Source of the DNA: a virus
Direction: 5' to 3' (one strand)
Length of the DNA stretch: 28,477 bases
Virus record (IMG/VR): IMGVR_UViG_3300030110_000214
Span: 1-28,477 of that record
A program made the position numbers and the translations under genes. The notes under the pieces are model-generated. The model was not told where the DNA came from, searched no databases, and saw only the letters and a list, made by a program, of their open reading frames with translations. Each line of letters begins with the position of its first letter. The stretch's first letter is position 1. Positions 1 to 28,205 of the stretch are shown in pieces.

Positions 1-295
1 TATTTAAATCCTTAATATCATAGTCATGTTCTCTGACTTGGTCTGCTAGTTGTCTATATAAATTTTCTGCCATCTGCCACGTAGATTCTGCAGAAGTTAA
101 TCTTGTATTTTGATCTACAATTTTATCTTCTGCAACTTTTAAATCTCGTTTAAGATCTACAATTTGTTGTTGGTTTGAATTAATAGTATCTGTAAGATTT
201 ACAATATATCTAACACCAGTAAACGTTCCGACTAAGACTGATGCCACAACTGGAACCATTACTATATTTTTCTTTAGTAAATCTGCCAAATTCAT
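1..295 (-). CDS. Membrane-anchored coiled-coil protein (partial, C-terminus outside window)
   Basis: The reading frame is open from an ATG at 295 to the window edge, about 98 codons. It begins MNLADLLKKN, followed by one hydrophobic segment at about residues 11-31 (IVMVPVVASVLVGTFTGVRY). After that comes a long polar stretch rich in Q, D, E and K (NSNQQQIVDLKRDLKVAEDK and onward) that looks like a helical coiled coil. An N-terminal anchor followed by a long polar helix is the layout of Rz-type inner-membrane spanins, so a role in lysis is possible. The sequence shows only the layout, not homology. The gene begins 9 bases after the stop of the 21-residue peptide gene and closes the leftward replication-side transcript in this window. 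Confidence 0.6.
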   Translation of the reverse strand, partial: MNLADLLKKNIVMVPVVASVLVGTFTGVRYIVNLTDTINSNQQQIVDLKRDLKVAEDKIVDQNTRLTSAESTWQMAENLYRQLADQVREHDYDIKDLN

Positions 296-304
296 AAATT
301 AATC

Positions 305-370
305 TTACCAAAATTTTGAAACAATACTTTCCCAGATTGCTTTTAGTTTTTGTTTAATTTTTTTAATCAT
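305..370 (-). CDS. 21-residue cationic amphipathic peptide
   Basis: A 22-codon frame (ATG at 370, TAA at 305) begins MIKKIKQKLK and ends SIVSKFW. It has six Lys and one Glu (net about +5). Hydrophobic residues at 2, 5, 9, 12/13, 16/17 and 20/21 give an i, i+3/i+4 pattern, so it would form an amphipathic helix with a Lys face. A strong Shine-Dalgarno, GAGGAG, lies 7 bases before the ATG, inside the last codons of the upstream 216-residue gene. The ATG overlaps that gene's stop (ATGATTAA), which suggests coupled translation. The sequence resembles membrane-active peptides. Phage disruptins, short cationic peptides that break the outer membrane, are a known functional precedent, but no homology is claimed. 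It could also be a chance frame, although the ribosome site argues against that. Confidence 0.55.
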   Translation of the reverse strand: MIKKIKQKLKAIWESIVSKFW

Positions 371-1013
371 GTTTTTTCTCCTCTATTTCATAGAAGAACT
401 TATCCGTATCTTCTGTACGCCAAGCTCTACTATCTTCAACGTTCCATTCAGATGTTTGCACTTTCCAATCAGGTATGTTGTCCTTCACAGTAAAAGAAGG
501 TATGTCCCATATTATTCTGTTGTTTGGTTGTGCTGCATAATTCCCGTCATCTAGGGCCATTATGTGTGCGCACTTGTGTTCGTGCGGTATCTCTGAATGA
601 TCAGTGTCAACTATATTACTCTCTGGATGTGCAAAGTCAACGGTAAATAAGTATTTACCACTATGCCATTTTTTATCTTTGCCTATGTATTTACCTGCTT
701 GTCCGTCTAGGATGTCCCAACTAGTAACAGCAGGATAATAACTAAAAGAATTCCATAACTCCAACTCGTCCAACCTACGTTGAGGAACTTCTTCCGGCTT
801 AAATCCTCTTTGTATGAAAGCAGAGATTGGTAAGCGGTAGAAGACTGCACCATTTTCCATAATTGCGTGGAACAAAATCGGACGACCAGTGATCGCAGTA
901 ATCCCGAAGACAATACAATCTTCAACTTCGCCATGATGAGTTTTAAGATCATATAAATACTCTCTCCTTATTTGAGCATAAGTTACTGGTATGTTTGCAT
1001 TTAAATAAGCCAT
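363..1013 (-). CDS. Conserved phage protein of unknown function
   Basis: This is a 216-residue soluble protein starting MAYLNANIPVTY, with no signal peptide or membrane segment. The first half has a hydrophobic alternating pattern (CIVFGITAITGRPILFHAIM) that looks like beta strands. The second half is rich in Asp, His and Trp, with DHSEIPHEHKCAHIMALDDG at about residues 137-156. That His/Cys cluster could bind metal, but I recognise no family. The gene starts 2 bases after the stop of the DNA polymerase gene, so it is almost certainly cotranscribed with replication genes. Its 3' end carries the ribosome site of the downstream 21-residue peptide. The function is unknown. Confidence 0.8.
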   Translation of the reverse strand: MAYLNANIPVTYAQIRREYLYDLKTHHGEVEDCIVFGITAITGRPILFHAIMENGAVFYRLPISAFIQRGFKPEEVPQRRLDELELWNSFSYYPAVTSWDILDGQAGKYIGKDKKWHSGKYLFTVDFAHPESNIVDTDHSEIPHEHKCAHIMALDDGNYAAQPNNRIIWDIPSFTVKDNIPDWKVQTSEWNVEDSRAWRTEDTDKFFYEIEEKKHD

Positions 1014-1015
1014 AA

Positions 1016-2872
1016 TTAATCATGTATCGCACCCCAGTTGTCCCCATGTTCATAATCAACTTTGTTGGGGACTTCCAGTGTAACAGCATTTTCCATCACA
1101 TCAATAATTTTTTTAGCATGTGATTTATCCTCAACAGATATATCTAATTCATCATGTATTTGTATATGCGGTATGATACCTTCTTTGTAAAGCTCTAGCA
1201 TTGCTTTCTTAGTCATGTCCGCAGCTGATCCTTGTATGAGTTTATTCAAAGCTTTGTATGTGTAAGCTCTCTTGATCCCCGGTCCATGTTCCCTGAGTGC
1301 ATCTTCGTGGGTCATGGCCTTATGCATACCAAAACTATTAGGCTCCCACAGGTGAAACCTGCACAATCTACCTAGCAAAGTTCTTATCTGACCACGATCT
1401 TGTGCTCTGTTAGATGCTTTTTCCATCAATTGTTTTACAAATGGTACACGTGAATGATATGTATTAAATAATTCTGCAGCTTTGTTTTTTGTTACACCTA
1501 ACTCTGCCTGTAATTTAGCTTTACCCATACCATAAAAAAGACCCAAATTAATTACCTTAGCTTGTGATCTAGGTATGTCAGCCATATCTGCTACGGTTTG
1601 GTGAAAGTCTGCATTAGAATCATTGCTGTATGCATCTACAACATCATAGACCGATGGTAATTTGTATAAAGAAGCATAATGCACTACCAGTCTAGGCTCT
1701 TGCTGAGAATAGTCAAAACAACCCCATGTATGACCTTTCTCGGGTATAAATAATGACCTTATCTTAGGTCCCAGATCTTTGTTTCTGGCTGGTATTTGTT
1801 GCAGGTTTGGATTCTGGTAGGAGAACCTACCAGTAACCGTGCCACCCCCAGCATTACGTAATTGATTAATCTCTGCATGTATTCTGCCGTTATGTTCATA
1901 ACGTAAAATAGAATCTAAAAAAGTTGTATGTGCCTTGTTTATCTCTCTTGCCTGTGCAATCATATTAACAACAGGATGTTCGTGTTCCTGTAAAAAGTTT
2001 TTTGTAAAACTAGGTGCTTCTGTTTTTTCTGTACGTGGATATTCTAACCTTAATATATCAAATACATTTGCAATAGATCTTGCTGCCCAAATTTGTGTAT
2101 CAATATTAGTTTCACCTTTTATCTTGTGTAGTAATTCTCTCTCTTGTGCAATCAATTCTTTTTTCATTTGATGTGCACGTTCTACGTCTACACGTACACC
2201 TTTAAATCTCATATCAACCAGGCAAGGAAACAAATCAGACTCCAGATCAAATATATCTTCTAGGTCCTGACTAATAATTTCTTTTTTCATTTCTTGCCAA
2301 AGTCCTAATGTTACTTCAGCATCTCGTTCTGCATATGCACCAACATGCATTGCAGGTAGTTTATACATTTCTGATTTTGGATCTATGCCCCATTCTTCTG
2401 CAGCTTCTGCAAGTGCAGCTTCGTTCTTACCATAACCAAGATAGTGCCAGGATAAACTATTAAGATCGTATCTAAATCTATTCTCATCTGTCAACGCTGA
2501 TGCAATCATAGTGCAGGCTATGTCACCATTTATTTTAAATCCCATTGCTCGCAACCAACACACATCGTAGATTGCATTGTGAAATATTTTTGTTGATGGT
2601 GATTCTAAAATATCTTTTAACCAAGATAAAACTCTTTTCTTATCCATGTTGCCACCGCCTTCGTGTGCAATTGGAAAGTATCCTTTGTAAAATTTTGTAG
2701 CTACGGCAATACCTATGACTTCACCATTACCAATTACAGAACCAGATCCTTTCTTTAATAAGTCTGGGTCTTTTGTTTCCAAGTCAATTGCTATTTCATC
2801 TACATTACGTAGGTCTGGAAACTCTGTAGGTTTTACCCACTCTGTCTGTGCTTCAAACTTAGGAATTTTCAT
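1016..2872 (-). CDS. polA: DNA polymerase I family A with 3'-5' exonuclease domain (Leu762 type)
   Basis: This is the replicative polymerase of the phage, about 618 residues. The N-terminal third is a DnaQ-like proofreading exonuclease, with Exo I in VDEIAIDLETKDP, Exo II in IFHNAIYDVCWL and Exo III in YAERDAEVTLGL. The polymerase domain has motif A FDYSQQEPRL (catalytic Asp 387), motif B from RSQAKVINLGLFYG and motif C IHDEL (Asp 574). There is no 5'-3' exonuclease, as is usual for phage enzymes. In motif B, Leu 443 occupies the position of E. coli Phe762. A TTG five codons upstream (2887) also opens the frame, but the ATG at 2872 is preceded by AAAGGG at suitable spacing and is preferred. 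The gene overlaps the end of the DUF3310 gene by 14 bases. Identity is very secure. Confidence 0.96.
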   Translation of the reverse strand: MKIPKFEAQTEWVKPTEFPDLRNVDEIAIDLETKDPDLLKKGSGSVIGNGEVIGIAVATKFYKGYFPIAHEGGGNMDKKRVLSWLKDILESPSTKIFHNAIYDVCWLRAMGFKINGDIACTMIASALTDENRFRYDLNSLSWHYLGYGKNEAALAEAAEEWGIDPKSEMYKLPAMHVGAYAERDAEVTLGLWQEMKKEIISQDLEDIFDLESDLFPCLVDMRFKGVRVDVERAHQMKKELIAQERELLHKIKGETNIDTQIWAARSIANVFDILRLEYPRTEKTEAPSFTKNFLQEHEHPVVNMIAQAREINKAHTTFLDSILRYEHNGRIHAEINQLRNAGGGTVTGRFSYQNPNLQQIPARNKDLGPKIRSLFIPEKGHTWGCFDYSQQEPRLVVHYASLYKLPSVYDVVDAYSNDSNADFHQTVADMADIPRSQAKVINLGLFYGMGKAKLQAELGVTKNKAAELFNTYHSRVPFVKQLMEKASNRAQDRGQIRTLLGRLCRFHLWEPNSFGMHKAMTHEDALREHGPGIKRAYTYKALNKLIQGSAADMTKKAMLELYKEGIIPHIQIHDELDISVEDKSHAKKIIDVMENAVTLEVPNKVDYEHGDNWGAIHD

Positions 2873-3080
2873 TGTAGTCCCTTTCAATAATCATTTCGAT
2901 AAAATGAATTGCCTTTTCCAAATCCTGCCTTTTTCCTTTCAGTCGATGACGACATATGTATTTTATAGCACATCCCTCCGGAAATAAAAGCTCATTCTCT
3001 ACTACAAACTTACTTGGCTGAATCTTAAACTTAGAGTAATGTGATCCTCCAATTTGTTTATTCCAAACCTTCGATTTCAT
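2859..3080 (-). CDS. DUF3310 family protein
   Basis: This is a 73-residue protein matching the DUF3310 pattern from memory. GGSHYSKFKIQPSKFV is at about residues 11-26, and EGCAIKYICRHRLKGKRQDL plus EKAIHFIE follow at about 35-62. The family is common next to phage replication and nucleotide-metabolism genes. It is sometimes labelled nucleotide kinase in databases, but no P-loop is visible here and its biochemical role is unproven. The start overlaps the end of the UvrD-like helicase gene by 23 bases, and its stop lies inside the polymerase gene, so the three genes are tightly coupled. Confidence 0.85.
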   Translation of the reverse strand: MKSKVWNKQIGGSHYSKFKIQPSKFVVENELLFPEGCAIKYICRHRLKGKRQDLEKAIHFIEMIIERDYNENS

Positions 3081-4551
3081 AACCTTGGTCCTCCTTTTTT
3101 GCTGCCATGATATATAGATTTTGTTTTGTACGTGTTACACCCACATACCAAACTCTGTGTTCTTCATCAAATTTGTCTATGCTTTTCTCTGATGCTTCTC
3201 TAATTGTTTTTGTGTTGTCTAATATTAATAATACATTATCTGCTTCACCACCTTTTGCAGAATGTATTGTAGATAGTTTTACTCTTGGGTCCTTTCGTAA
3301 TTCTTCCCCATTACTTAACATTTCTCGTATGTATAAACACTCTTCATAGTCTGATGTAAACTCATCATACCAGGGTATTTTTTTATCAAACCCAAACTCT
3401 TCAAGATTATACATTCTTTCTTCGGTTAATTCTGTGTCTGTATTTGTGTATTCAAATATGTCTTTTACTTCTGCTAAAGATAGATCATCACCTTTCTGCC
3501 ATCTTATGTAGTTTAGAATAGTTCTAAACAAGGTTACCTTATAACTTTTACGATTTTTATATTCAAAATAAATACCACGTTCTTTTAAAAAAGGTTTGAG
3601 TCTATTTAGTCTATCATTGTATCTTGCTAGTACCAACCAGTTACCTTCATCTATTGGCACATCGTCTAAACTATAAATGTAATTTACTGTCCCTTGTTCA
3701 TTTCTTGCTTTCCAATTTTTTAATACTCTTCTGTTGGGTGAAATTAAATCTAATATCTTATCTGCAAGATTTTGTACGGTCTGTGGAACCCTGTAAGATT
3801 GTGGCAAAATTATGTCTTTCTTTGAAATTTCTTGCTGAAATTTTTTTACATCTGCACCTGCCCAGCCATAAATCGCTTGATCATCATCACCCGCTAGTAT
3901 AACATATTGGCTATTTTCCTTGATAATATTGAACATTTTCCATTGTATAGGTGATAAGTCTTGAGCTTCATCAACAAATGCTACGTCAAATTTTGGACAC
4001 AATTTAGACACAATAAATTTTTCTATCATGTCTGTAAAATCTACTAAACCAAATGCTTGTTTGTAGTTGTCTACTTCATCAGCAATAATTTTTAACAATC
4101 TCTTATCCATGTCCTGTGAATACATGTCAGTATTATATTCTTCTTCAATAGAAATATTTTTAATTCTAGCTGCATTTATTAAATTAAAATATTCGCTATC
4201 AGAATTTATAAATCCTGTAGTCTCTTCACCATTTGCATAAACTGTAACTTCAATACCTAGTTTTCTACCTATATCTTCATAGTGTTCATCTTGCATAACC
4301 TGTGCTTTCTTCATACCTAATTGATTAAAAGCAAGAGAGTGTAATGTTCTGAAATGTTTAAGATCTTTTCTTTCAAAAGCTGTATGATAGTCTAACATTC
4401 TATCAATAGCTTCGTTTGCAGCCTTGGTTGTAAATGCAAAATACCCTATCTTATCAATAGGTGTTCCTAGTTTTAAAAATGTTTTTACATATTTTAATAA
4501 CTTAGTTGTTTTCCCTGTGCCCGGAGGCCCAAATAATTTTCTACTAATCAT
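3058..4551 (-). CDS. UvrD/Rep-like superfamily 1A DNA helicase
   Basis: This is a 497-residue ATP-dependent 3'-5' helicase, probably unwinding DNA at the phage fork or in recombination. Visible motifs, in order, are Walker A GPPGTGKTT (8-16), motif Ia region GYFAFTTKAANEA, motif II VDEAQDLSPIQW (Asp-Glu at 194-195), motif III LAGDDDQAIYGWAGAD (219-234), motif IV LPQSYRVPQ, motif V LSTIHSAKGGEADNVLL and motif VI WYVGVTRTKQNLY (arginine finger near 474). It is shorter than cellular UvrD (about 720 residues), with reduced 1B/2B insertions, as is common in phages. Its ATG overlaps the primase stop as ATGA, which indicates coupled expression. No DnaB-type replicative helicase is seen in the window, so this or the SNF2 protein may provide the main unwinding activity. 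Confidence 0.93.
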   Translation of the reverse strand: MISRKLFGPPGTGKTTKLLKYVKTFLKLGTPIDKIGYFAFTTKAANEAIDRMLDYHTAFERKDLKHFRTLHSLAFNQLGMKKAQVMQDEHYEDIGRKLGIEVTVYANGEETTGFINSDSEYFNLINAARIKNISIEEEYNTDMYSQDMDKRLLKIIADEVDNYKQAFGLVDFTDMIEKFIVSKLCPKFDVAFVDEAQDLSPIQWKMFNIIKENSQYVILAGDDDQAIYGWAGADVKKFQQEISKKDIILPQSYRVPQTVQNLADKILDLISPNRRVLKNWKARNEQGTVNYIYSLDDVPIDEGNWLVLARYNDRLNRLKPFLKERGIYFEYKNRKSYKVTLFRTILNYIRWQKGDDLSLAEVKDIFEYTNTDTELTEERMYNLEEFGFDKKIPWYDEFTSDYEECLYIREMLSNGEELRKDPRVKLSTIHSAKGGEADNVLLILDNTKTIREASEKSIDKFDEEHRVWYVGVTRTKQNLYIMAAKKEDQGYEIEGLE

Positions 4552-9437: not shown

Positions 9438-9505
9438 GACCTGGTGTTATAATTAGAATGGGACTATGGATTAGTCTTGTTGCTTGTTTGCTTTGGTATT
9501 TTTAA
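9428..9505 (+). CDS. 25-residue single-pass membrane peptide
   Basis: A 26-codon frame begins ATG inside the last codons of the SNF2 gene and ends TAA. It reads MDLRPGVIIRMG, followed by a hydrophobic stretch LWISLVACLLWYF. One transmembrane helix with a short N-terminal tail containing two Arg is predicted. GAGAGGAA lies about 10 bases before the ATG, an acceptable ribosome site. The overlap with the helicase suggests coupled translation. It is too short to assign; small membrane peptides in phages can act in exclusion or lysis timing. A chance frame is possible. Confidence 0.45.
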   Translation: MDLRPGVIIRMGLWISLVACLLWYF

Positions 9506-9981
9506 GCAAAAATATCTTTTGCTTTACCAATAATAGGTTTGTATTTTGTACGACCTTCTTCTCTATATGCATGTAAGAATTGTTTTCTTGGTGTACCTTC
9601 TGTAAAACTACAATGTATCCATCCCGAATTAGGTTCGCCGGGTGTGTAAAATTCTAATATTAGTTGGTCCCAATCTAACTCTCTATGTATCCAATCTGCA
9701 AGCTCACAATTATCTACCCCTATTACTTCGAAGTCAGCCGCTTCTGCACGCGCGTGCTGTGAATTTGGTGAACTGCCAATGGCCTGGCACAGCTGTGGAC
9801 TACGGAACCCGCTAGTCACCTTGACTCTGCCAAAATGATCACGTACTGGTTGTAAAATTTTTTCACAAAGTGTTTTTAATTTTTCAATTTGTTCTGCGTT
9901 AGGATTATTGTTAATTCCTTTTCTGATAGCAGTGTCGCTTTTAGTAAGCTCTGATAAAGTGAAGTTCCGTGTCAGCTCCAT
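9502..9981 (-). CDS. Endolysin, M15-type zinc peptidase
   Basis: This is a 159-residue peptidoglycan-cutting enzyme of the peptidase M15 / DUF882 type, expected to cleave peptide cross-bridges in the periplasm during lysis. N-terminal FTLSELTKSDTA and the helix QIEKLKTLCEKILQPVRDHF precede VTSGFRSP (56-62). The zinc ligands are visible as SQHARAEAADFE (His 76, Asp 83) and WIHCSF (His 123), in the family's usual SxHxxxxAxD...H order. There is no signal peptide, so release would depend on a holin. Its ATG shares one base with the stop of the upstream small membrane gene (TAATG). Its 3' end overlaps the end of the opposing 25-residue gene by 4 bases. Confidence 0.92.
   Translation of the reverse strand: MELTRNFTLSELTKSDTAIRKGINNNPNAEQIEKLKTLCEKILQPVRDHFGRVKVTSGFRSPQLCQAIGSSPNSQHARAEAADFEVIGVDNCELADWIHRELDWDQLILEFYTPGEPNSGWIHCSFTEGTPRKQFLHAYREEGRTKYKPIIGKAKDIFA
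9504..9524. terminator. Candidate bidirectional terminator at the convergent gene ends
   Basis: A perfect 8-bp inverted repeat AAGCAAAA-atatc-TTTTGCTT lies exactly where the rightward SNF2/peptide transcript meets the leftward lysis transcript. The stem is AT-rich and the tails are only partly T-rich, so termination would be weak. Its position between the two converging stop codons is the main support. Confidence 0.35.
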
Positions 9982-10148
9982 TATAGTTTACCCTGTAGTT
10001 CGTTTAAATATTTTTCGTTTTCTTCTTGTTCTATTTGTTCTGGAGTTTTTTGTATTTTATTTATTACATAGTATACAGCTAAAGCACCGATAAGTATGCA
10101 GGTCATACCATATAAAAACATTAAGAAACCAACTTCTAGTGTCATCAT
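9981..10148 (-). CDS. Small membrane protein of the lysis cassette (holin candidate)
   Basis: This is a 55-residue frame starting MMTLEVGFLMFLYGM. It has one strong hydrophobic helix at about residues 7-30 (to ALAVYYVIN) and a charged C-terminal tail, KIQKTPEQIEQEENEKYL, of about 25 residues. It sits between the XhlA-like gene (4-base overlap, ATGATG over TGA) and the endolysin (1-base overlap, TAATG), the usual place for a holin or a spanin component. Single-helix holins exist, but nothing in the sequence proves pore formation. It is real on grounds of coding continuity and tight packing. Confidence 0.7.
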   Translation of the reverse strand: MMTLEVGFLMFLYGMTCILIGALAVYYVINKIQKTPEQIEQEENEKYLNELQGKL

Positions 10149-10324
10149 TTCATATAATTCATGACTAAAGCCAGAATGAGAGATCCCATTCCTCCTACGA
10201 TCATGTACTCAATTCTTTTAATACGTTCTTTCATTTCTTTTATTTGGTCGAACGTTTGCTTTTGCATAATCCTGCAAAGTTTTTCATGAGCTTCTATTTT
10301 TTGTAATGCCGATTTTTTAGTCAT
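10145..10324 (-). CDS. XhlA-like coiled-coil/membrane protein (lysis)
   Basis: This is a 59-residue protein starting MTKKSALQKIEAHEKL. Residues about 7-39 form a charged helix (IMQKQTFDQIKEMKERIKRI). A C-terminal membrane segment, YMIVGGMGSLILALVMNYMK, follows at 40-59. A polar helix followed by a terminal membrane helix is the arrangement of the haemolysin XhlA family, a cell-surface/holin partner in several phages. The Shine-Dalgarno AGGA precedes the ATG at good spacing. It lies 2 bases after the stop of the 1301-residue virion gene and overlaps the next lysis gene. The family resemblance is in layout and general pattern; the role in lysis is inferred from neighbours. Confidence 0.68.
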   Translation of the reverse strand: MTKKSALQKIEAHEKLCRIMQKQTFDQIKEMKERIKRIEYMIVGGMGSLILALVMNYMK

Positions 10325-21289: not shown

Positions 21290-21934
21290 TTATTTGACTA
21301 TTCCTAGCATAGGTCTTTTATCATACAAATTGGTTTTTGCAAACCTCCCATCTGCATGATTATAGTGTAGGAATACTTGGCCGCATAATTTACCTTGAAA
21401 AGGCTCTCTCCAGTGTTCTAATTCACATCCTGAATAAATAAGCATATCTCCTGGTTTTAGGTCTACTTTTATACCTTTGGGTGCACCGGGCTTATGTATG
21501 TTTTTATACTCATCTATGACGTTGTCAGACCCTGTAGGATCGATAAATATAGGCCATTGATCTCCACCTAGATTAAGAGTGGTAGATATTTCACAACTTG
21601 GTCTATCTTTATGTCTTCTTAAGATATTACCGGTTCTATAAAGTCTTGTGTATGAGTATGTTGGTATTAACTTAAGTCCTGTTTTCTTTTGCATAACAGC
21701 TATAGTTTTAACAAGTAATGTTTCCATTAATCTATCGCCATATTTAGCGTAAGAATTTGGAACTTGTGAATCATTAAAATTACCTATAAGTTTATTACTT
21801 TCATGGGTTACACCATTACTTAACATCCAATAATCTGCATCTGCTGATATTTGTAAATACCTGTAAGCTATTTCTGCTACTTCTTTTGATATAGCACCAC
21901 GTATAACTTGATATTTATTTTTTTTAAAACTCAT
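21290..21934 (-). CDS. 2OG-Fe(II) oxygenase (fourth of the group)
   Basis: This is a 214-residue protein starting MSFKKNKYQVIRGAISKEVA. The jelly-roll iron site is visible as LRRHKDRPSCEISTTLNLG (His 108, Asp 110) and, after GDMLIYSGCELEHWREPF, His 174. This is the HxD...H triad of prolyl-4-hydroxylase-like dioxygenases. The usual 2OG-binding Arg after the distal His is not obvious in GKLCGQVFLHYN, although an Arg at WRE is nearby. The substrate is unknown; hydroxylation of a phage or host protein, or of a nucleotide or sugar, are all possible. It overlaps the preceding oxygenase gene by 4 bases and is followed by a hairpin. Confidence 0.82.
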   Translation of the reverse strand: MSFKKNKYQVIRGAISKEVAEIAYRYLQISADADYWMLSNGVTHESNKLIGNFNDSQVPNSYAKYGDRLMETLLVKTIAVMQKKTGLKLIPTYSYTRLYRTGNILRRHKDRPSCEISTTLNLGGDQWPIFIDPTGSDNVIDEYKNIHKPGAPKGIKVDLKPGDMLIYSGCELEHWREPFQGKLCGQVFLHYNHADGRFAKTNLYDKRPMLGIVK

Positions 21935-22536
21935 AATTGTATAAAATTATATGATACAGATATGCGCCAATTCTTTTCACCTTTATCTGTATTTAAATTT
22001 ATATCTACACCATGAGGCAACCAGCTAGGAAAAAACATCATACGACCTTCTACAGGTTCATAAGCGCAAACTCTCCACAGTGCTTCTGGCATATTATCTA
22101 CTCTTCTAGGCATGTGTGTATTAGGCCCGGGTCTAGGGTCTTCTAAAAATAGCTTACCTGATTTTTTTGGAACTTTAATATAATATACACCTGACCACAT
22201 TGAGTTAGGGTGTGTATGTGTTTTGTTATAACTATATGTTGGATTAATATTAGCCCACATATTACCCAAACCTAACTTACCCGTAATACCATAATCTTTA
22301 TTACACTCTTCAGCCATTTTAAATAATTCATTAATAAGTGGTTTATACTCTTTTCGTTTGTCCATATCAGTTGGACTATGCCAACCAAAACCAGAGTTTG
22401 TTTTCTTTTCTCCTTTAGGTTCTGCTTTATGCCACTTCTTTATTTCTTTAAATAAATATTTATTAAGTTCTTTAGCATTAGGTATATCTTTAAAATATAC
22501 AGGAGTTGGAAATAATATTTTTCTTTGTAATTTCAT
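21931..22536 (-). CDS. 2OG-Fe(II) oxygenase-like protein (third of the group)
   Basis: This is a 201-residue protein starting MKLQRKILFPTPVYFKDIP. It continues NSGFGWHSPTDMD, LGNMWANINPTYSYNKTHTH and PNSMWSGVYYIKVPKKSGKL, and ends EGRMMFFPSWLPHGVDIN and WRISVSYNFIQL. This is the pattern of the putative 2OG-Fe(II) oxygenase family with the FPTP start (PF13759-like). Likely ligands are His 107 and/or 109 and His 175, with Arg near 192 for 2-oxoglutarate. The first pair is HxH rather than the classical HxD. The overlap with both neighbours is 4 bases, so the four oxygenase genes are a single translational unit. The substrate is unknown. Confidence 0.85.
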   Translation of the reverse strand: MKLQRKILFPTPVYFKDIPNAKELNKYLFKEIKKWHKAEPKGEKKTNSGFGWHSPTDMDKRKEYKPLINELFKMAEECNKDYGITGKLGLGNMWANINPTYSYNKTHTHPNSMWSGVYYIKVPKKSGKLFLEDPRPGPNTHMPRRVDNMPEALWRVCAYEPVEGRMMFFPSWLPHGVDINLNTDKGEKNWRISVSYNFIQL

Positions 22537-23126
22537 TTAAAAGGAGGTCCTCCAAACCACATAACTAATGATTTTCTAACCCCCTTTTTAACTGGAGCTA
22601 CTTTGTGTCTTAAGAAGGATGCAAAGAATATTGCTTGTCCTTGTTTTAGATCTAATGGTTTATTATCTCCCATTTCTGAAAATGTAAGCTCTCCACCTGT
22701 AAACTCTGATGGATCTGATAATAACAATGTCATAGATATTTTACGTATTGGATTTTGGCCTTCTTGACCAAAAGCATTAAGATCCATGTGCCAATCATAA
22801 AAACCTTTTTTAGGATATACAGTAAATTGTGCAGGTTCTGTAAGTCTTACACCATCAAAATAGAAATGATTTAAGTTTACGATAGAGAGTTGATTTTCAA
22901 TAACTCTATACATCTGTGGTAATTTATCAAAAGGTATCCAAGATATAGTTGTAACTCTTTTCTTAGTATCATACTTACCTTTTTCTCCACCTCCAACTTT
23001 TGCTTGTTCAGGTGCACATTGATGACCAGCATCGATAATTATTTTACATTGTTCAGGTGTAAAGATAGGATTTGTTGTTTGGGCAACATAAGATTGCCAT
23101 GTTGGCATTCGTGGTACTTGTGTCAT
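22533..23126 (-). CDS. 2OG-Fe(II) oxygenase, PKHD-type hydroxylase (second of the group)
   Basis: This is a 197-residue protein with a clear dioxygenase core. FYDWHMDLNAFG gives His 113 and Asp 115, and FASFLRHKVAPVKKGVRKSL gives His 174 and the 2OG-anchoring Arg in VRKSLVMWFGGPP. GGELTFSE (the turn before the distal strand) and LKQGQAIFF also match the PiuC/PKHD family. It is about the length of the catalytic domain alone. Of the four neighbours this has the most canonical active site, so it is the most likely to be an active enzyme. It overlaps both neighbours by 4 bases. Confidence 0.9.
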   Translation of the reverse strand: MTQVPRMPTWQSYVAQTTNPIFTPEQCKIIIDAGHQCAPEQAKVGGGEKGKYDTKKRVTTISWIPFDKLPQMYRVIENQLSIVNLNHFYFDGVRLTEPAQFTVYPKKGFYDWHMDLNAFGQEGQNPIRKISMTLLLSDPSEFTGGELTFSEMGDNKPLDLKQGQAIFFASFLRHKVAPVKKGVRKSLVMWFGGPPFK

Positions 23127-23785
23127 TCGTTTTGTCCCATACCAGTTCTTGAAGATACAGGATTGTAATCAACATCAACATTACAAACTAATGTTCTTCT
23201 TGTTTCTTTAGTTCCGTTAAACGGATATACGCAGTGTCTCATATCATATGGAAAAACATAAAAGTCTCCTATCTTCATATTAGGAGAATAATCTGTTTTA
23301 GAAAACTGTCCATTAGCTGCGCCAATAATTTGTAATCTACCATTCATAGGTTTCGACTCTGCTGAATACTCTACTCCTGTGTCTTTTGGTAATTTTAAAA
23401 TCATTACAGAAGATAAACCTGTATAGAGTTTACCTTGGTGTATATGCACGGGATTATATTCATGTGCTTTCATTTCATTAACCCAAATAGAATTTATAGA
23501 TTTATTTGTTGGACCTATCTTATTCCAATCTGTGTAGTGATCAAATATAGACATAAACCATTTAAGGATGTCGGCTGGTAAAAAAGAATGTTGGTGCATC
23601 TTATCATTGTTAGGACCTGAATAATATAAAGACACTTCATCCTGTATCTTACCTACTAATTGTTTGTTAGCTTTAGGTAATTGTTTTTTTTGTTTTTCAT
23701 AAATCTCATTAAGACCTACAAAAATTTCTAAAGGGACTTCATATTTTAAAACCGTTTGCCCTAGATAGACAAAATCGAAGTTCAT
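23123..23785 (-). CDS. 2OG-Fe(II) oxygenase-like protein (first of the group)
   Basis: This is a 220-residue protein starting MNFDFVYLGQTVLKYEVP. The core has SINSIWVNEMKAHEYNPVHI then HQGKLYTGLSSVMILKLP (His 114 and His 116), GDFYVFPYDMRHCVYPF (His 184) and TKETRRTLVCNVDVDY (Arg near 195). This HxH...H...R order and the WVN...NPVHxH segment belong to a family common in cyanophages and pelagiphages, annotated as putative 2OG-Fe(II) oxygenases. The HxH in place of HxD is a caveat for activity. The gene starts 4 bases before the end of the coiled-coil gene. Substrate unknown. Confidence 0.75.
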   Translation of the reverse strand: MNFDFVYLGQTVLKYEVPLEIFVGLNEIYEKQKKQLPKANKQLVGKIQDEVSLYYSGPNNDKMHQHSFLPADILKWFMSIFDHYTDWNKIGPTNKSINSIWVNEMKAHEYNPVHIHQGKLYTGLSSVMILKLPKDTGVEYSAESKPMNGRLQIIGAANGQFSKTDYSPNMKIGDFYVFPYDMRHCVYPFNGTKETRRTLVCNVDVDYNPVSSRTGMGQNE

Positions 23786-24504: not shown

Positions 24505-26325
24505 CTACGATACGGTTACTGTAGATAACGTGTTATCTGATGTAAATTCTTCTGTTGCATTTCCTGGAGAACCTCCTCCATAAGCAAGTCCTGCAACTCC
24601 TGACCCAGCACCTGCTAAAGTATTACGTGCACTTGATAAATCTGCAAGTTCTGTCCAAGCAGTTCCATTCCAAAGCTCATTGTTAGCAATCGCACCTGGT
24701 GAAGATTGACCACCAAAAGCTAATGCAAAAGTAGATATTCCACAACCAGCATGATAAACTTTCGCTTGATTCATGTCCGCAAGTTCTGTCCAAGAGCTAC
24801 CATCCCATTGTTCATTTTTTGTTACGCCTGCAGGTTCAGGACTACCACCAAAAAATAAACCATCTGTATTACTACTACCTGCTGCAGCACCAGCATATCT
24901 GCCACTATTAATTTCTGCAATTTCTGTCCAAGATGTTCCATTCCAAGATTCTACATTTGACGTTCCTGGAGTACCTCCTGCTGCTACGGCAGAATTATAA
25001 ACACCAAAACCACCAATAAGACCTCTTGCTGAATTTGCTGCATTACCTGCAGTCCAATTAGTTCCATCCCAAGTTTCAGTATTAGTTACATATCCAGGAC
25101 TAGGAGCTATATACCCTAATCCAAGAACTGTTAACGTTGATGTTCCACCTACCGCAGCATTGCTTCTTGCTTGATTTAAATTGTTAACTTCTGTCCAGCT
25201 AGATCCATTATATAATTCAGTATTTGCAGTAGATGTTGGATAACCTCCACCTGCTAACATTGCAGCAGTTTGAGTTCCCCCAGTGCTAGACGGATTATTT
25301 CCTCTAGCAGTATTTAAATTACCACCAGTTGCCCACGTTGCACTTGGTATTCCAGCCGCTTTTCCAAAACCTTTTAACGTTGTGCCTCCAGATAAAAATA
25401 CCATACCTTCTACTAAAAAGTTTGATGTTGGAGGTGGAACATTCCACTCTTCACTTGAAGCTTTAAATGATGTTGATGGTGCTTTTCCTGCAAAACTTAA
25501 TGCAGAAGTATTAGATGATGAATAACCAGAAGCAGCATGATCTTTTCTAGCTGTAGATAAATCTGCAACTTCAGTCCAACTAGTTCCATCAAATGATTCA
25601 GTATTTGTTATTTGTGCGCCTGGAGCTGCTTCTCCTCCATTTGTAAGTAAAGCAGTACCATCACCAGTTAAAGCATTAGAATATCTACCTGTATTTAAAT
25701 CTGCTTTTTCAGTCCAAGTTGAACCATTCCATTGTTCTGTGTTTCCAGGAGTTCCTGGAGAACCAGCGACTGCAGATGCAGACGAACTAGATTGACCAGA
25801 GGCAGAACCTTGACCTCTAGCAGTATTTAATTCTGCTCCTGCTGCCGACCAATTTGTTCCATCCCAAACTTCAACAGTATCTTGGTTACCATTTCCACCA
25901 CTTATTAGTCCTGATGTGGCTGTACCTGCACCTGATATGTTCATAGCAAATCTTGCGGTGTTCATATTATTTACTTCAGTCCAACTAGATCCGTTCCAAT
26001 ATTCTGTGTTAGCTGAAGTTGGAGATCTACCACCGCAACCAATCATTGCAGTATTTGTTGCACCAAAAGCTGCCATAGAATTTCTTGCTGAATTTAATTC
26101 AGCTATTTCAGTCCAAGAGGTTCCGTTATAATTTTCAACAGCCGATTGTGTTCCAGGACTAGCATAACCTGCTATAGCCATAGCAGAAGTTTGAATACCT
26201 CCACCTGCTAAGTCTGATCTTGCAGTATTCATAGTTCCACCACTAGACCAAGATCCTGCATTTACAACTGGATCGCTGTCTAATGTTTGTATTGTTCCAC
26301 CTTTTACTTCTCTATATGTTGCCAT
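24505..26325 (-). CDS. Kelch-like double beta-propeller tail protein (copy 2)
   Basis: This is a 606-residue protein built almost wholly of repeats of about 47 residues, each with the core [N/D]G[S/T]xWTE..[D/N]LN.AR followed by a Gly-rich hydrophobic strand and NTE.W. Six units form a first propeller (ending SSEEWNVPPP). A linker, FLVEGMVFLSGGTTLKGFG, leads to six more units closing with NATEEFTSDN. The N-terminus MATYREVKGGTIQTLDSDPV closely parallels the upstream paralogue (copy 1) and is likely the virion attachment. Such kelch-like proteins are plausible tail fibres or receptor-binding proteins. There is no signal peptide and no catalytic motif. The receptor is unknown. Confidence 0.78.
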   Translation of the reverse strand: MATYREVKGGTIQTLDSDPVVNAGSWSSGGTMNTARSDLAGGGIQTSAMAIAGYASPGTQSAVENYNGTSWTEIAELNSARNSMAAFGATNTAMIGCGGRSPTSANTEYWNGSSWTEVNNMNTARFAMNISGAGTATSGLISGGNGNQDTVEVWDGTNWSAAGAELNTARGQGSASGQSSSSASAVAGSPGTPGNTEQWNGSTWTEKADLNTGRYSNALTGDGTALLTNGGEAAPGAQITNTESFDGTSWTEVADLSTARKDHAASGYSSSNTSALSFAGKAPSTSFKASSEEWNVPPPTSNFLVEGMVFLSGGTTLKGFGKAAGIPSATWATGGNLNTARGNNPSSTGGTQTAAMLAGGGYPTSTANTELYNGSSWTEVNNLNQARSNAAVGGTSTLTVLGLGYIAPSPGYVTNTETWDGTNWTAGNAANSARGLIGGFGVYNSAVAAGGTPGTSNVESWNGTSWTEIAEINSGRYAGAAAGSSNTDGLFFGGSPEPAGVTKNEQWDGSSWTELADMNQAKVYHAGCGISTFALAFGGQSSPGAIANNELWNGTAWTELADLSSARNTLAGAGSGVAGLAYGGGSPGNATEEFTSDNTLSTVTVS

Positions 26326-28120
26326 AATTAACTCGCTGTAATTGTTTTATTCTGTAAACCTGAAGGAACTACCCACTCTTCTGTTATTGCAGGTTGAGGG
26401 TTAGATCCTGGATAACCTCCAGCCATCCAAGCTGATGTGCTTGATCCCGCAGATGTTCCATTATATCGTCCTGTTGCTAAATCTGCAACTTCTGTCCAAG
26501 CCGTTCCGTTCCAAGATTCTGTGTTAGCATAATAAGTAGGGTGATTTCTGCCACCAAAAATAAGTGCTGCGGTGCTAGTGCTTGCTGCTCCGTTAGCACC
26601 TTCTCTAGATGTATTAAATTCTGCTATTGTTGTCCAACTTGTACCATCCCAAGTTTCTGCATCAGCAGTTTCACCAGATCCAGGGTGTCCTCCTCCCATT
26701 ATAGCGTCTGTAGATAATCCTCCACCTGTTATTTGAGTTCTCCCTTCATTTAAATCACCTGTTTCAGTCCAAGAACTTCCGTCCCATATTTCTGTTTTAG
26801 CTTTATTAGCTGGAAAAGGACTACCTTCTCCACCACAAAATATAGAAGCAGTATGAGTTCCTGCTCCCCATGCTTGAACTCTTTGAGAATTAACATCTGT
26901 TGTTTCAGTCCAATTAGTTCCGTCAAAAGTCTCTACGTTAGTCATTCCTGCGGCTTGTCCTGCTAAAATACCTGAAACAACTAATGCACCTGCAGGTGTT
27001 CCTGCACCAGAAGAATAACCTCTTGATGTATTAAGATTATTTACTTCTGTCCAAGAAGTTCCGTTATAAATTTCTGTGTTAGTGTAAGATGCACCAGGTG
27101 AATATTTATTACCACCACTAACTAATCCTATTGATGCACTACCACCAGAGGCATTGTTTCCACCTTGTGATCTTGCTTGATTTAAATTGCCGCCAGATGA
27201 CCAAGAACCTGTGCCAATAACTGTCATTGTTTCTTTAAAAGTGTTTGTTGTTGAATTAAAATATAATTGTCCTTCAGTAATTTTAGAAAAACTAGTTCCT
27301 GTGACCGTAAATTCTTCTGTTGCGGAACTTGTAGGGGGTGTCCCTCCTGCTATTATACCAGCAGTTGCTGTTCCTCCACCAAAAACTGCATATCTAGCTG
27401 TTGATACATCAGCTACTTCAGTCCAAGATGTACCATCAAAATTTTCTGTTTGTGTATAATGTGTCGGACCAGGAACATTTGAACCTGACATACAGAGAGC
27501 ATTTGTTTGAGTACCACCGCCACCACCATATGCTCGTGCTGTGTTTAAATCTGCAACTTCAGTCCAAGAAGTTCCGTCCCAAGATTCTGTTACTAATTCA
27601 GCGGGATTACCACCTTGACCTCCAAAATAAAGTGAAGCTGTATATGGACCTGAACCACCTAAAGACATACCTCCTGTTCTAGCAGTATTCATGTCTCCAA
27701 CTTCTGTAAAAGCACTTCCATTATATGATTCCGTTTCTGCTGATGGTGAAGGTGATCCACCATTACCACCAATAACCAAACCCGCTGTTACAATTCCTGA
27801 AGCTCGTCTATATCTTTGACCTGAATTTAAACTTCCACCTGATGTCCAAGAAGAACCATCCCATTCATAACTAGCAGTTGTAGCTGGAGATCCAGGTGTT
27901 TGTCCAGCTGCAACTAATACAGCAGTGCTAGATGCACCTGTTCCAGCAAACGCATACGTAGCAGTAGGCATAGCTGTTCCATTAGTCCAAGAAGAACCAT
28001 TATAATTTTCAACGGTTGAAACAATACTACTAGTATAACCACCAACAGCCATTAAAGATGTTTGAGTTCCACCAGCAGCACCATCATATCTAGCAGTGTT
28101 CATACTACCACCAGATGCCC
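24600..28120. repeat. Degenerate DNA repeat array of about 140 bp period
   Basis: The kelch-like units are visible at DNA level as recurring blocks around TCTGTCCAAG, spaced about 137-141 bases, across both genes. The units share segments long enough to allow recombination between units and between genes. This is coding repeat DNA, not CRISPR or an intergenic repeat. Confidence 0.6.
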
Positions 28121-28205
28121 ATGAACCTGTAGCAATTAAAGAGCTAGCAGGATCCGTGCTAACAGTTTGAACTGTAAATCCTTTTATATCCGAATACTTA
28201 GCCAT
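26328..28205 (-). CDS. Kelch-like double beta-propeller tail protein (copy 1)
   Basis: This is a 625-residue paralogue of the next gene, with the same architecture. The N-terminal segment is MAKYSDIKGFTVQTVSTDPA. Six kelch-like units end with ATEEFTVTG. An inter-propeller linker, ITEGQLYFNSTTNTFKETM, is followed by six further units closing with ITEEWVVPSG. The linker resembles the QxxYN(S/T)T repeat seen in marine-phage tail fibres. Unit cores (DGTSWTEVADLNTAR) are nearly identical between units and between the two genes, while the strands between vary, as expected for a binding surface. It sits 2 bases upstream of copy 2. Surface attachment is likely; enzyme activity is not indicated. Confidence 0.78.
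   Translation of the reverse strand: MAKYSDIKGFTVQTVSTDPASSLIATGSWASGGSMNTARYDGAAGGTQTSLMAVGGYTSSIVSTVENYNGSSWTNGTAMPTATYAFAGTGASSTAVLVAAGQTPGSPATTASYEWDGSSWTSGGSLNSGQRYRRASGIVTAGLVIGGNGGSPSPSAETESYNGSAFTEVGDMNTARTGGMSLGGSGPYTASLYFGGQGGNPAELVTESWDGTSWTEVADLNTARAYGGGGGTQTNALCMSGSNVPGPTHYTQTENFDGTSWTEVADVSTARYAVFGGGTATAGIIAGGTPPTSSATEEFTVTGTSFSKITEGQLYFNSTTNTFKETMTVIGTGSWSSGGNLNQARSQGGNNASGGSASIGLVSGGNKYSPGASYTNTEIYNGTSWTEVNNLNTSRGYSSGAGTPAGALVVSGILAGQAAGMTNVETFDGTNWTETTDVNSQRVQAWGAGTHTASIFCGGEGSPFPANKAKTEIWDGSSWTETGDLNEGRTQITGGGLSTDAIMGGGHPGSGETADAETWDGTSWTTIAEFNTSREGANGAASTSTAALIFGGRNHPTYYANTESWNGTAWTEVADLATGRYNGTSAGSSTSAWMAGGYPGSNPQPAITEEWVVPSGLQNKTITAS

Follow-up and report, generated by a model that had tools for sequence, protein, structure and literature searches.

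The phiKT protein gp28 is described as a disruptin with a role at the outer membrane (Holt et al. 2022, as presented in PMC12819732). It comprises 56 amino acids with a net charge of +7 and a helical hydrophobic moment z-score of 2.7, and its gene lies between the endolysin and holin genes, overlapping the endolysin gene by 8 nt. Disruptins have been compared with LL-37-like host-defence peptides, and their diversity hampers prediction (PMC12819732). In a census of spanins, 91 of 677 phages were without spanins and their outer-membrane route was left open (PMC6139136). Our literature search found no paper on the way in which phages get through the outer membrane of SAR11, and no description of a peptide like the one reported here in the pelagiphage literature.

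Here, we analysed a window of 28,477 nucleotides (bases 1–28477 of a 34,582-base virus record), which encodes a 21-residue peptide. At the same position, directly after a phrog_3704 gene (hereafter the slot), relatives encode either similar bare peptides (type A) or variants with a transmembrane tail (type B), a CxxC zinc-ribbon-like domain (type C) or a poly-Lys tail (type D). Like gp28, type A peptides are short, cationic and amphipathic, lack a signal peptide and are encoded with an 8-nt overlap with the preceding gene; in T7-like relatives, type D is encoded right after a holin-candidate gene. In contrast to the 56 residues of gp28, type A peptides mostly have 16–33 residues, and the present peptides are highly variable, heptad-stepped and in some cases fused to a zinc ribbon. 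Furthermore, the window peptide appears to be coupled to the phrog_3704 gene, and its disruptin-like activity is putative. Comparisons with gp28 revealed no homology, as blastp gave no match better than an E-value of 1 and hhalign probabilities were 0.1% (type A) and 2.7% (type B). The peptide could therefore at best work like a disruptin, and we do not assign it as a member.

A likeness to the two-component spanins Rz/Rz1 (PMC6139136) lies in the genes adjoining the peptide, which encode proteins with an N-terminal transmembrane segment and a coiled coil, and in one relative where a Pro-rich lipoprotein-like ORF occupies the slot in place of the peptide. The peptide itself, however, has neither a transmembrane segment nor a lipobox, and its neighbours match spanin families below significance. 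With LL-37-like peptides, the present ones share a Lys-rich composition, a Trp/Ile hydrophobic face and a single helix, but they are phage-encoded, any activity of theirs would start from within the cell, and they showed no homology in Pfam and PDB searches.

Results

A short cationic peptide gene next to the contig end

The minus strand of the window encodes, in this order, a helicase, a DUF3310 protein, DNA polymerase A, a phrog_3704 protein, the peptide and a protein with a transmembrane segment and a coiled coil. The relevant features are as follows.

2–295, minus strand: downstream gene (CC99 family), one N-terminal transmembrane segment, then a coiled coil; cut by the contig end
305–370, minus strand: gene for the 21-residue cationic amphipathic peptide (type A) MIKKIKQKLKAIWESIVSKFW, from the ORF reading and same-position relatives
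363–370, minus strand: 8-nt start/stop overlap ATGATTAA of the peptide ATG with the stop of the phrog_3704 gene
363–1013, minus strand: upstream gene, 216 amino acids, phrog_3704 (E 2.4e-71; 112 phage records)
378–383, minus strand: Shine-Dalgarno sequence GAGGAG, ending 7 nt 5' of the peptide ATG
1016–2887, minus strand: family A DNA polymerase (PF00476, E 1.1e-65)
9502–9981, minus strand: M15 peptidase endolysin (PF08291, E 2.1e-18; phrog_894 endolysin, E 2.5e-42)
9981–10148, minus strand: small transmembrane ORF adjoining the endolysin, holin or spanin candidate
10145–10324, minus strand: small ORF with coil and transmembrane segment by the endolysin, holin candidate (phrog_38642, E 9e-21; phrog_689 holin at E 0.01 only)

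A sequence-only reading had proposed the cationic amphipathic peptide gene, its ribosome site and its overlap with the upstream gene, all of which were borne out. Six Lys and one Glu give the peptide a net charge of +5, and AGGAG or AGGAA is likewise placed before the peptide start in nearly all relatives. The overlap suggests translational coupling of the peptide to the phrog_3704 gene. Over 18 residues, the helical hydrophobic moment peaks at 0.54 (z about 2.0 versus shuffles of the peptide itself, p 0.03–0.04), which is good, not extraordinary, for the peptide taken singly. The whole 34,582-base contig was scanned on both strands for ATG ORFs with a Shine-Dalgarno sequence, at most 40 amino acids, a charge of at least +4 and at least two Trp or Phe, and the peptide gene was the sole ORF with all of these properties. 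As the contig contains no second ORF of this kind, peptides of this sort occur at the same position in dozens of contigs and the relatives change synonymously in frame (see below), we consider the ORF to be beyond chance. Searches of Pfam and PHROGs with the window peptide returned nothing, two type A relatives gave no meaningful match in PHROGs and a type A profile had no match among PDB sequences. The peptide is thus covered by neither a Pfam nor a PHROG family.

The phrog_3704 protein had no match in Pfam, and the ferredoxin/PurM label that its gene bears in many records therefore looks doubtful. The CC99 gene is incomplete because base 1 of the window is the contig end. Its product had been taken for an inner-membrane spanin; its layout, an N-terminal transmembrane segment followed by a coiled coil, fits an i-spanin, for which it is a candidate at most, with matches to phrog_89 (E 0.006–0.017) and phrog_739 (E 0.03–0.06) below significance. 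The M15 endolysin lies about 9 kb from the peptide, beyond an opposite-strand gene, and the two small transmembrane ORFs (9981–10324) sit just upstream of it. The coding strand of the 34.6-kb contig, which is incomplete and ends at the CC99 gene, yielded no lipobox o-spanin candidate. Elsewhere in the window, four tandem short genes (21290–23785) have by eye an oxygenase-type (2OG-Fe(II)) look, and two proteins of about 600 amino acids (24505–28205) with repeated kelch-like '-NG(S/T)SWTE-' units are likely tail or adhesion proteins.

Content of the slot in relatives

Viral contigs were retrieved with the upstream protein (80), two divergent homologues (a further 160) and the downstream protein (a further 80); since these queries were selected, the proportions given here are not population frequencies. 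These relatives are HTVC023P/HTVC027P-type pelagiphages. Within the upstream-protein set, 42 of the 70 contigs with a readable slot encode a cationic Trp-rich peptide at the same position, either bare (type A, 37) or with an A-like N-terminus and an extra tail (5). The other slots contain type C (14) or a transmembrane-type class (11, nine of them clear type B and two less certain); in the remaining 3 contigs, an M15 endolysin gene is coupled directly to the upstream gene. Across all 292 loci, we counted 57 type A, 6 extended type A, 94 type B (plus 9 uncertain), 53 type C and 17 type D slots, 23 with other content and 33 in which the peptide is absent. Type B carries a hydrophobic segment at its C-terminus, and type D follows the pattern MIDKFIYNFFGALDK...KKKKKK. 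In 53 of the 57 type A loci, the peptide start lies at −8 as counted from the stop of the upstream gene, and a cationic aromatic tail (e.g. SWWKRIFFWNR) ends 37 of the 47 distinct type C sequences from all sets. In this slot, the bare peptide thus interchanges with other membrane-seeking forms, which bear a zinc ribbon at the front or a transmembrane or poly-Lys tail.

Among individual slots, those of L112 and L154 contain a 53-residue ORF resembling a fusion of type D and type A helices. Type C proteins such as those of L129, L125 and gp12 of HTVC027P are small and zinc-ribbon-like with a cationic Trp tail (WWKKII-WL) at the end, and gp12 shows a weak Lar-like similarity. The lipoprotein-like ORF mentioned above (L120, 40 amino acids, Pro-rich, MKISLLLIVLVLLGNCASQTSLKFDPKDIIIPPPKPKINE) gave weak o-spanin matches (E 0.08–0.2) and possibly represents a swap of outer-membrane disruptors. 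Small lipoproteins with a common FDG[FY]DP-TA-V[RK]W after the lipobox are encoded about 2.3–2.9 kb downstream of the slot in L001, L022 and L317 and are candidates for o-spanins or for curli-related proteins. Lipoproteins were few among the loci when these were examined for complementarity between peptide and o-spanin. A curli-like secreted protein is encoded next after the slot in several relatives.

The 33 loci without the peptide, of which 29 keep both neighbours and 4 are coupled straight to M15, stem mostly from the downstream-gene retrieval; the neighbours are directly joined, in many cases with MNLADLLKKN... at −4. No convincing equivalent peptide was found in the downstream sequence as available. 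Because the peptide is missing in relatives that keep both neighbours, it is an accessory gene. The sequence-only reading would have counted such absence against a function; the pattern does occur, in 29 of 292 loci, but it marks the gene as accessory and replaceable and is not proof of non-function, as the evidence for constraint stands.

Selection on the peptide

For type A pairs with a DNA identity of at least 0.7, pN/pS was 0.33 in frame and 0.72 and 1.09 in the shifted frames; with an identity of at least 0.6, the values were 0.41 compared to 0.69 and 1.07. In a wider set selected by the motif, with the motif itself excluded (572 non-independent pairs), pN/pS was 0.46 in frame compared to 0.63 and 0.73 in the shifted frames, and that of type B was about 0.2. 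The 49 distinct type A peptides have a mean charge of +5.4, 2.9 Trp on average and a mean alpha-helical moment z of +1.98 versus composition-matched shuffles (p < 0.05 in 69%), and type D reaches an alpha moment z of +2.43 over its first 24 residues; as related peptides are non-independent, these moment and charge statistics are only descriptive. The beta periodicity of the same 49 peptides is not raised (z −0.38). Peptides with a shared C-terminus differ in length by 7 (or 14) residues in five groups (18/25/32, 26/33, 23/30, 18/25 and 17/24), and other length differences are mostly 3, 8, 11, 12 and 15, or, with a different choice of start, 1 or 4. Steps of seven residues hold the helical face in register. 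For a 32-residue relative, AlphaFold2 predicted a single helix from residue 2 to 31 (pLDDT 82.5). Both marks by which the sequence-only reading expected function to be recognised, the same frame with synonymous-biased variation in relatives and a conserved charge and heptad pattern, were found. The gene is under protein-level constraint and encodes a single cationic Trp/Lys amphipathic helix. In particular, the in-frame synonymous bias, the amphipathicity and the 7-residue steps show selection on what the sequences indicate to be a membrane-binding helix.

Association with lysis genes

An M15 endolysin is encoded downstream on the same strand, at a median distance of about 1.1 kb, in 57 of the 139 loci whose sequence extends for 2 kb or more beyond the slot. 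In L134, the run consists of the peptide, a TM-coil protein (phrog_20984), a small TM/Cys protein (phrog_24646) and M15; L062 has a similar run with one additional small ORF, and gp12–gp17 of HTVC027P follow a similar plan. The sequence-only reading had placed the peptide far from the main lysis cassette, which, given the phage's own M15 endolysin, is correct for this contig but does not extend to relatives, in which the slot opens or sits within the lysis cassette.

A search independent of the neighbouring genes, a DNA-motif scan for the codons of WLFSWQ, matched 120 stretches, of which 119 were read. The motif was located in ORFs of at most 75 amino acids in 102 cases, 81 of them directly after a phrog_3704 gene. 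Eleven of the 21 short motif ORFs without phrog_3704 directly upstream show the order phrog_2524 transmembrane protein, coil protein and peptide. An Amidase_2 endolysin (PF01510, E 1e-13) is visible just upstream in ten of these 11 contigs, and in the eleventh (L420) the contig end cuts off the amidase position; a TM-coil protein is encoded downstream of the peptide in 8 of the 11. In L367, L380 and L421 the peptide follows a small gene, which in L367 and L421 is preceded by structural genes.

T7-like pelagiphages encode type D directly 3' of the phrog_2524 gene. In HTVC119P, a phage lysozyme gene (PF00959) is directly followed by phrog_2524 and then by type D. The type D start lies within the phrog_2524 gene, 4 nt from its end, in HTVC119P, HTVC105P, HTVC021P and HTVC121P, and a TM-coil family gene is located 3' of the peptide in HTVC022P, HTVC105P, HTVC021P and HTVC121P. 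The peptide and its variants hence accompany endolysin and holin-candidate genes, and with M15, Amidase_2 and lysozyme three unrelated endolysin families associate with the peptide set. The locus therefore looks like that of a mobile lysis-cassette peptide and not of a stray replication-region gene.

Members in cultured phages

SAR11 are the most abundant bacteria of the ocean, and pelagiphages rank among the most abundant marine phages. Family members occur in the cultured phages HTVC023P, HTVC027P, HTVC119P, HTVC022P and Skadi, and from cultured SAR11 phages we infer a SAR11 host. Unannotated peptides are present in HTVC023P, Skadi-5, HTVC019P and Jormungand. Between gp44 and gp45, HTVC023P encodes a 30-residue peptide, MIDKYLYKFFDALDKFGSLIDNLFKRKKKK (L327:4741-4833, record ~29171-29263). 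In Skadi-5, a 33-residue type B peptide (L083 ~4145-4246, minus strand) is encoded directly before a coiled-coil gene and two genes after the multi-TM gene Skadi5_50, with type D further on; Skadi5_50, annotated as 'peptidase M15', has a multi-TM look and no Pfam match. HTVC019P (L335:2351 onward) and Jormungand (L337:2351 onward) encode a GTG-started type D directly after the phrog_2524 gene.

Discussion

We propose, with a probability of roughly 0.47, that these peptides belong to the lysis module of pelagiphages, as a rapidly changing family of very short, membrane-active peptides with a disruptin-like action on the outer membrane. By analogy, disruptin-like rupture, the precedent to which the sequence-only reading had pointed, is retained as the best single, putative, mechanism. 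The peptide would be made by translational coupling to the upstream gene and, having no signal peptide, would accumulate in the cytosol. Once holin triggering had opened the inner membrane and the peptidoglycan was cut, it would be released to the periplasm and reach the outer membrane, where it may bind anionic lipid or LPS and disrupt the membrane, replacing or assisting a spanin. As for the traits of disruptins, we found a short cationic amphipathic helical peptide in a phage of a presumably Gram-negative host. A location in the lysis cassette is seen in relatives with M15, Amidase_2 or lysozyme, compared to a distance of about 9 kb here. Concerning a lack of spanins, the coding strand of the incomplete contig has no lipobox o-spanin, and some relatives carry small lipoproteins. 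Against this proposal speak the distant endolysin and the position after replication genes in the window phage, the 33 of 292 loci that have neither the peptide nor a detected equivalent in the downstream sequence available, the lack of a sequence relationship to gp28, and the many type B and C variants, which fit an action at the inner membrane at least as well.

The last point leads to a regulator of lysis at the inner membrane, i.e. a small holin, an antiholin or a holin partner, whose helix would lie on the cytoplasmic face and tune hole formation by the adjoining TM/coil proteins, with the TM-tailed type B as the full-length form. The lysis contexts are the same, and the next genes encode a transmembrane segment and a coiled coil, type B has its C-terminal hydrophobic segment, and the 4-nt overlap of type D with phrog_2524 in four phages is typical of coupled partners. 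Yet type A has no segment of the length and hydrophobicity needed to span a membrane, the extreme freedom of sequence suggests lipids and not proteins as partners, and the peptide also occurs beside non-homologous cassettes, so that we regard a regulator as quite improbable. A membrane-active peptide without a role in lysis, which might help to take over the host, exclude superinfecting phages, cause depolarisation or compete with amphipathic membrane anchors of host proteins, is unlikely as well. FtsA is a host protein with such an amphipathic anchor. The slot would then be a hotspot for accessory genes, which is in line with its highly variable and dispensable content, the curli-like gene next to it in several relatives and the zinc-ribbon fusions bearing the same tail, and a non-lysis role retains some probability because the slot is dispensable and the peptide here follows replication genes. 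However, the motif-only search recovered the peptide in amidase and phrog_2524 cassettes without phrog_3704 immediately upstream, and its placement near structural genes in L367, L380 and L421 points to a late lysis function.

We give next to no credence to a non-functional ORF with no role other than that of a translational spacer separating its neighbours. Its very short length and its absence from some relatives would be compatible with this, but pN/pS is well under 1 and lowest in the coding frame, the amphipathicity is specific to a helix, the length steps keep the helical phase and one peptide appears in several genomic contexts; the in-frame constraint largely refutes a spacer.

Beyond the proposed disruptin-like lysis peptide, it may be speculated that pelagiphages use modular, rapidly exchanged minimal membrane-active lysis peptides in four forms (bare heptad-stepped helix, zinc-ribbon-fused helix, TM-tailed and poly-Lys) instead of conserved spanins. 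We consider this rather doubtful; if true, disruptin-like lysis would be common in the ocean and the lysis genes would be among the smallest known. In any case, the peptides are a recognisable, widespread and testable family that is often missed by gene callers. If the proposed lysis function is correct, the peptides of SAR11 phages may help to rupture the host envelope, which would account for a key step in the carbon-releasing lysis of abundant marine bacteria and would provide a naturally varied set of minimal membrane-active peptides.
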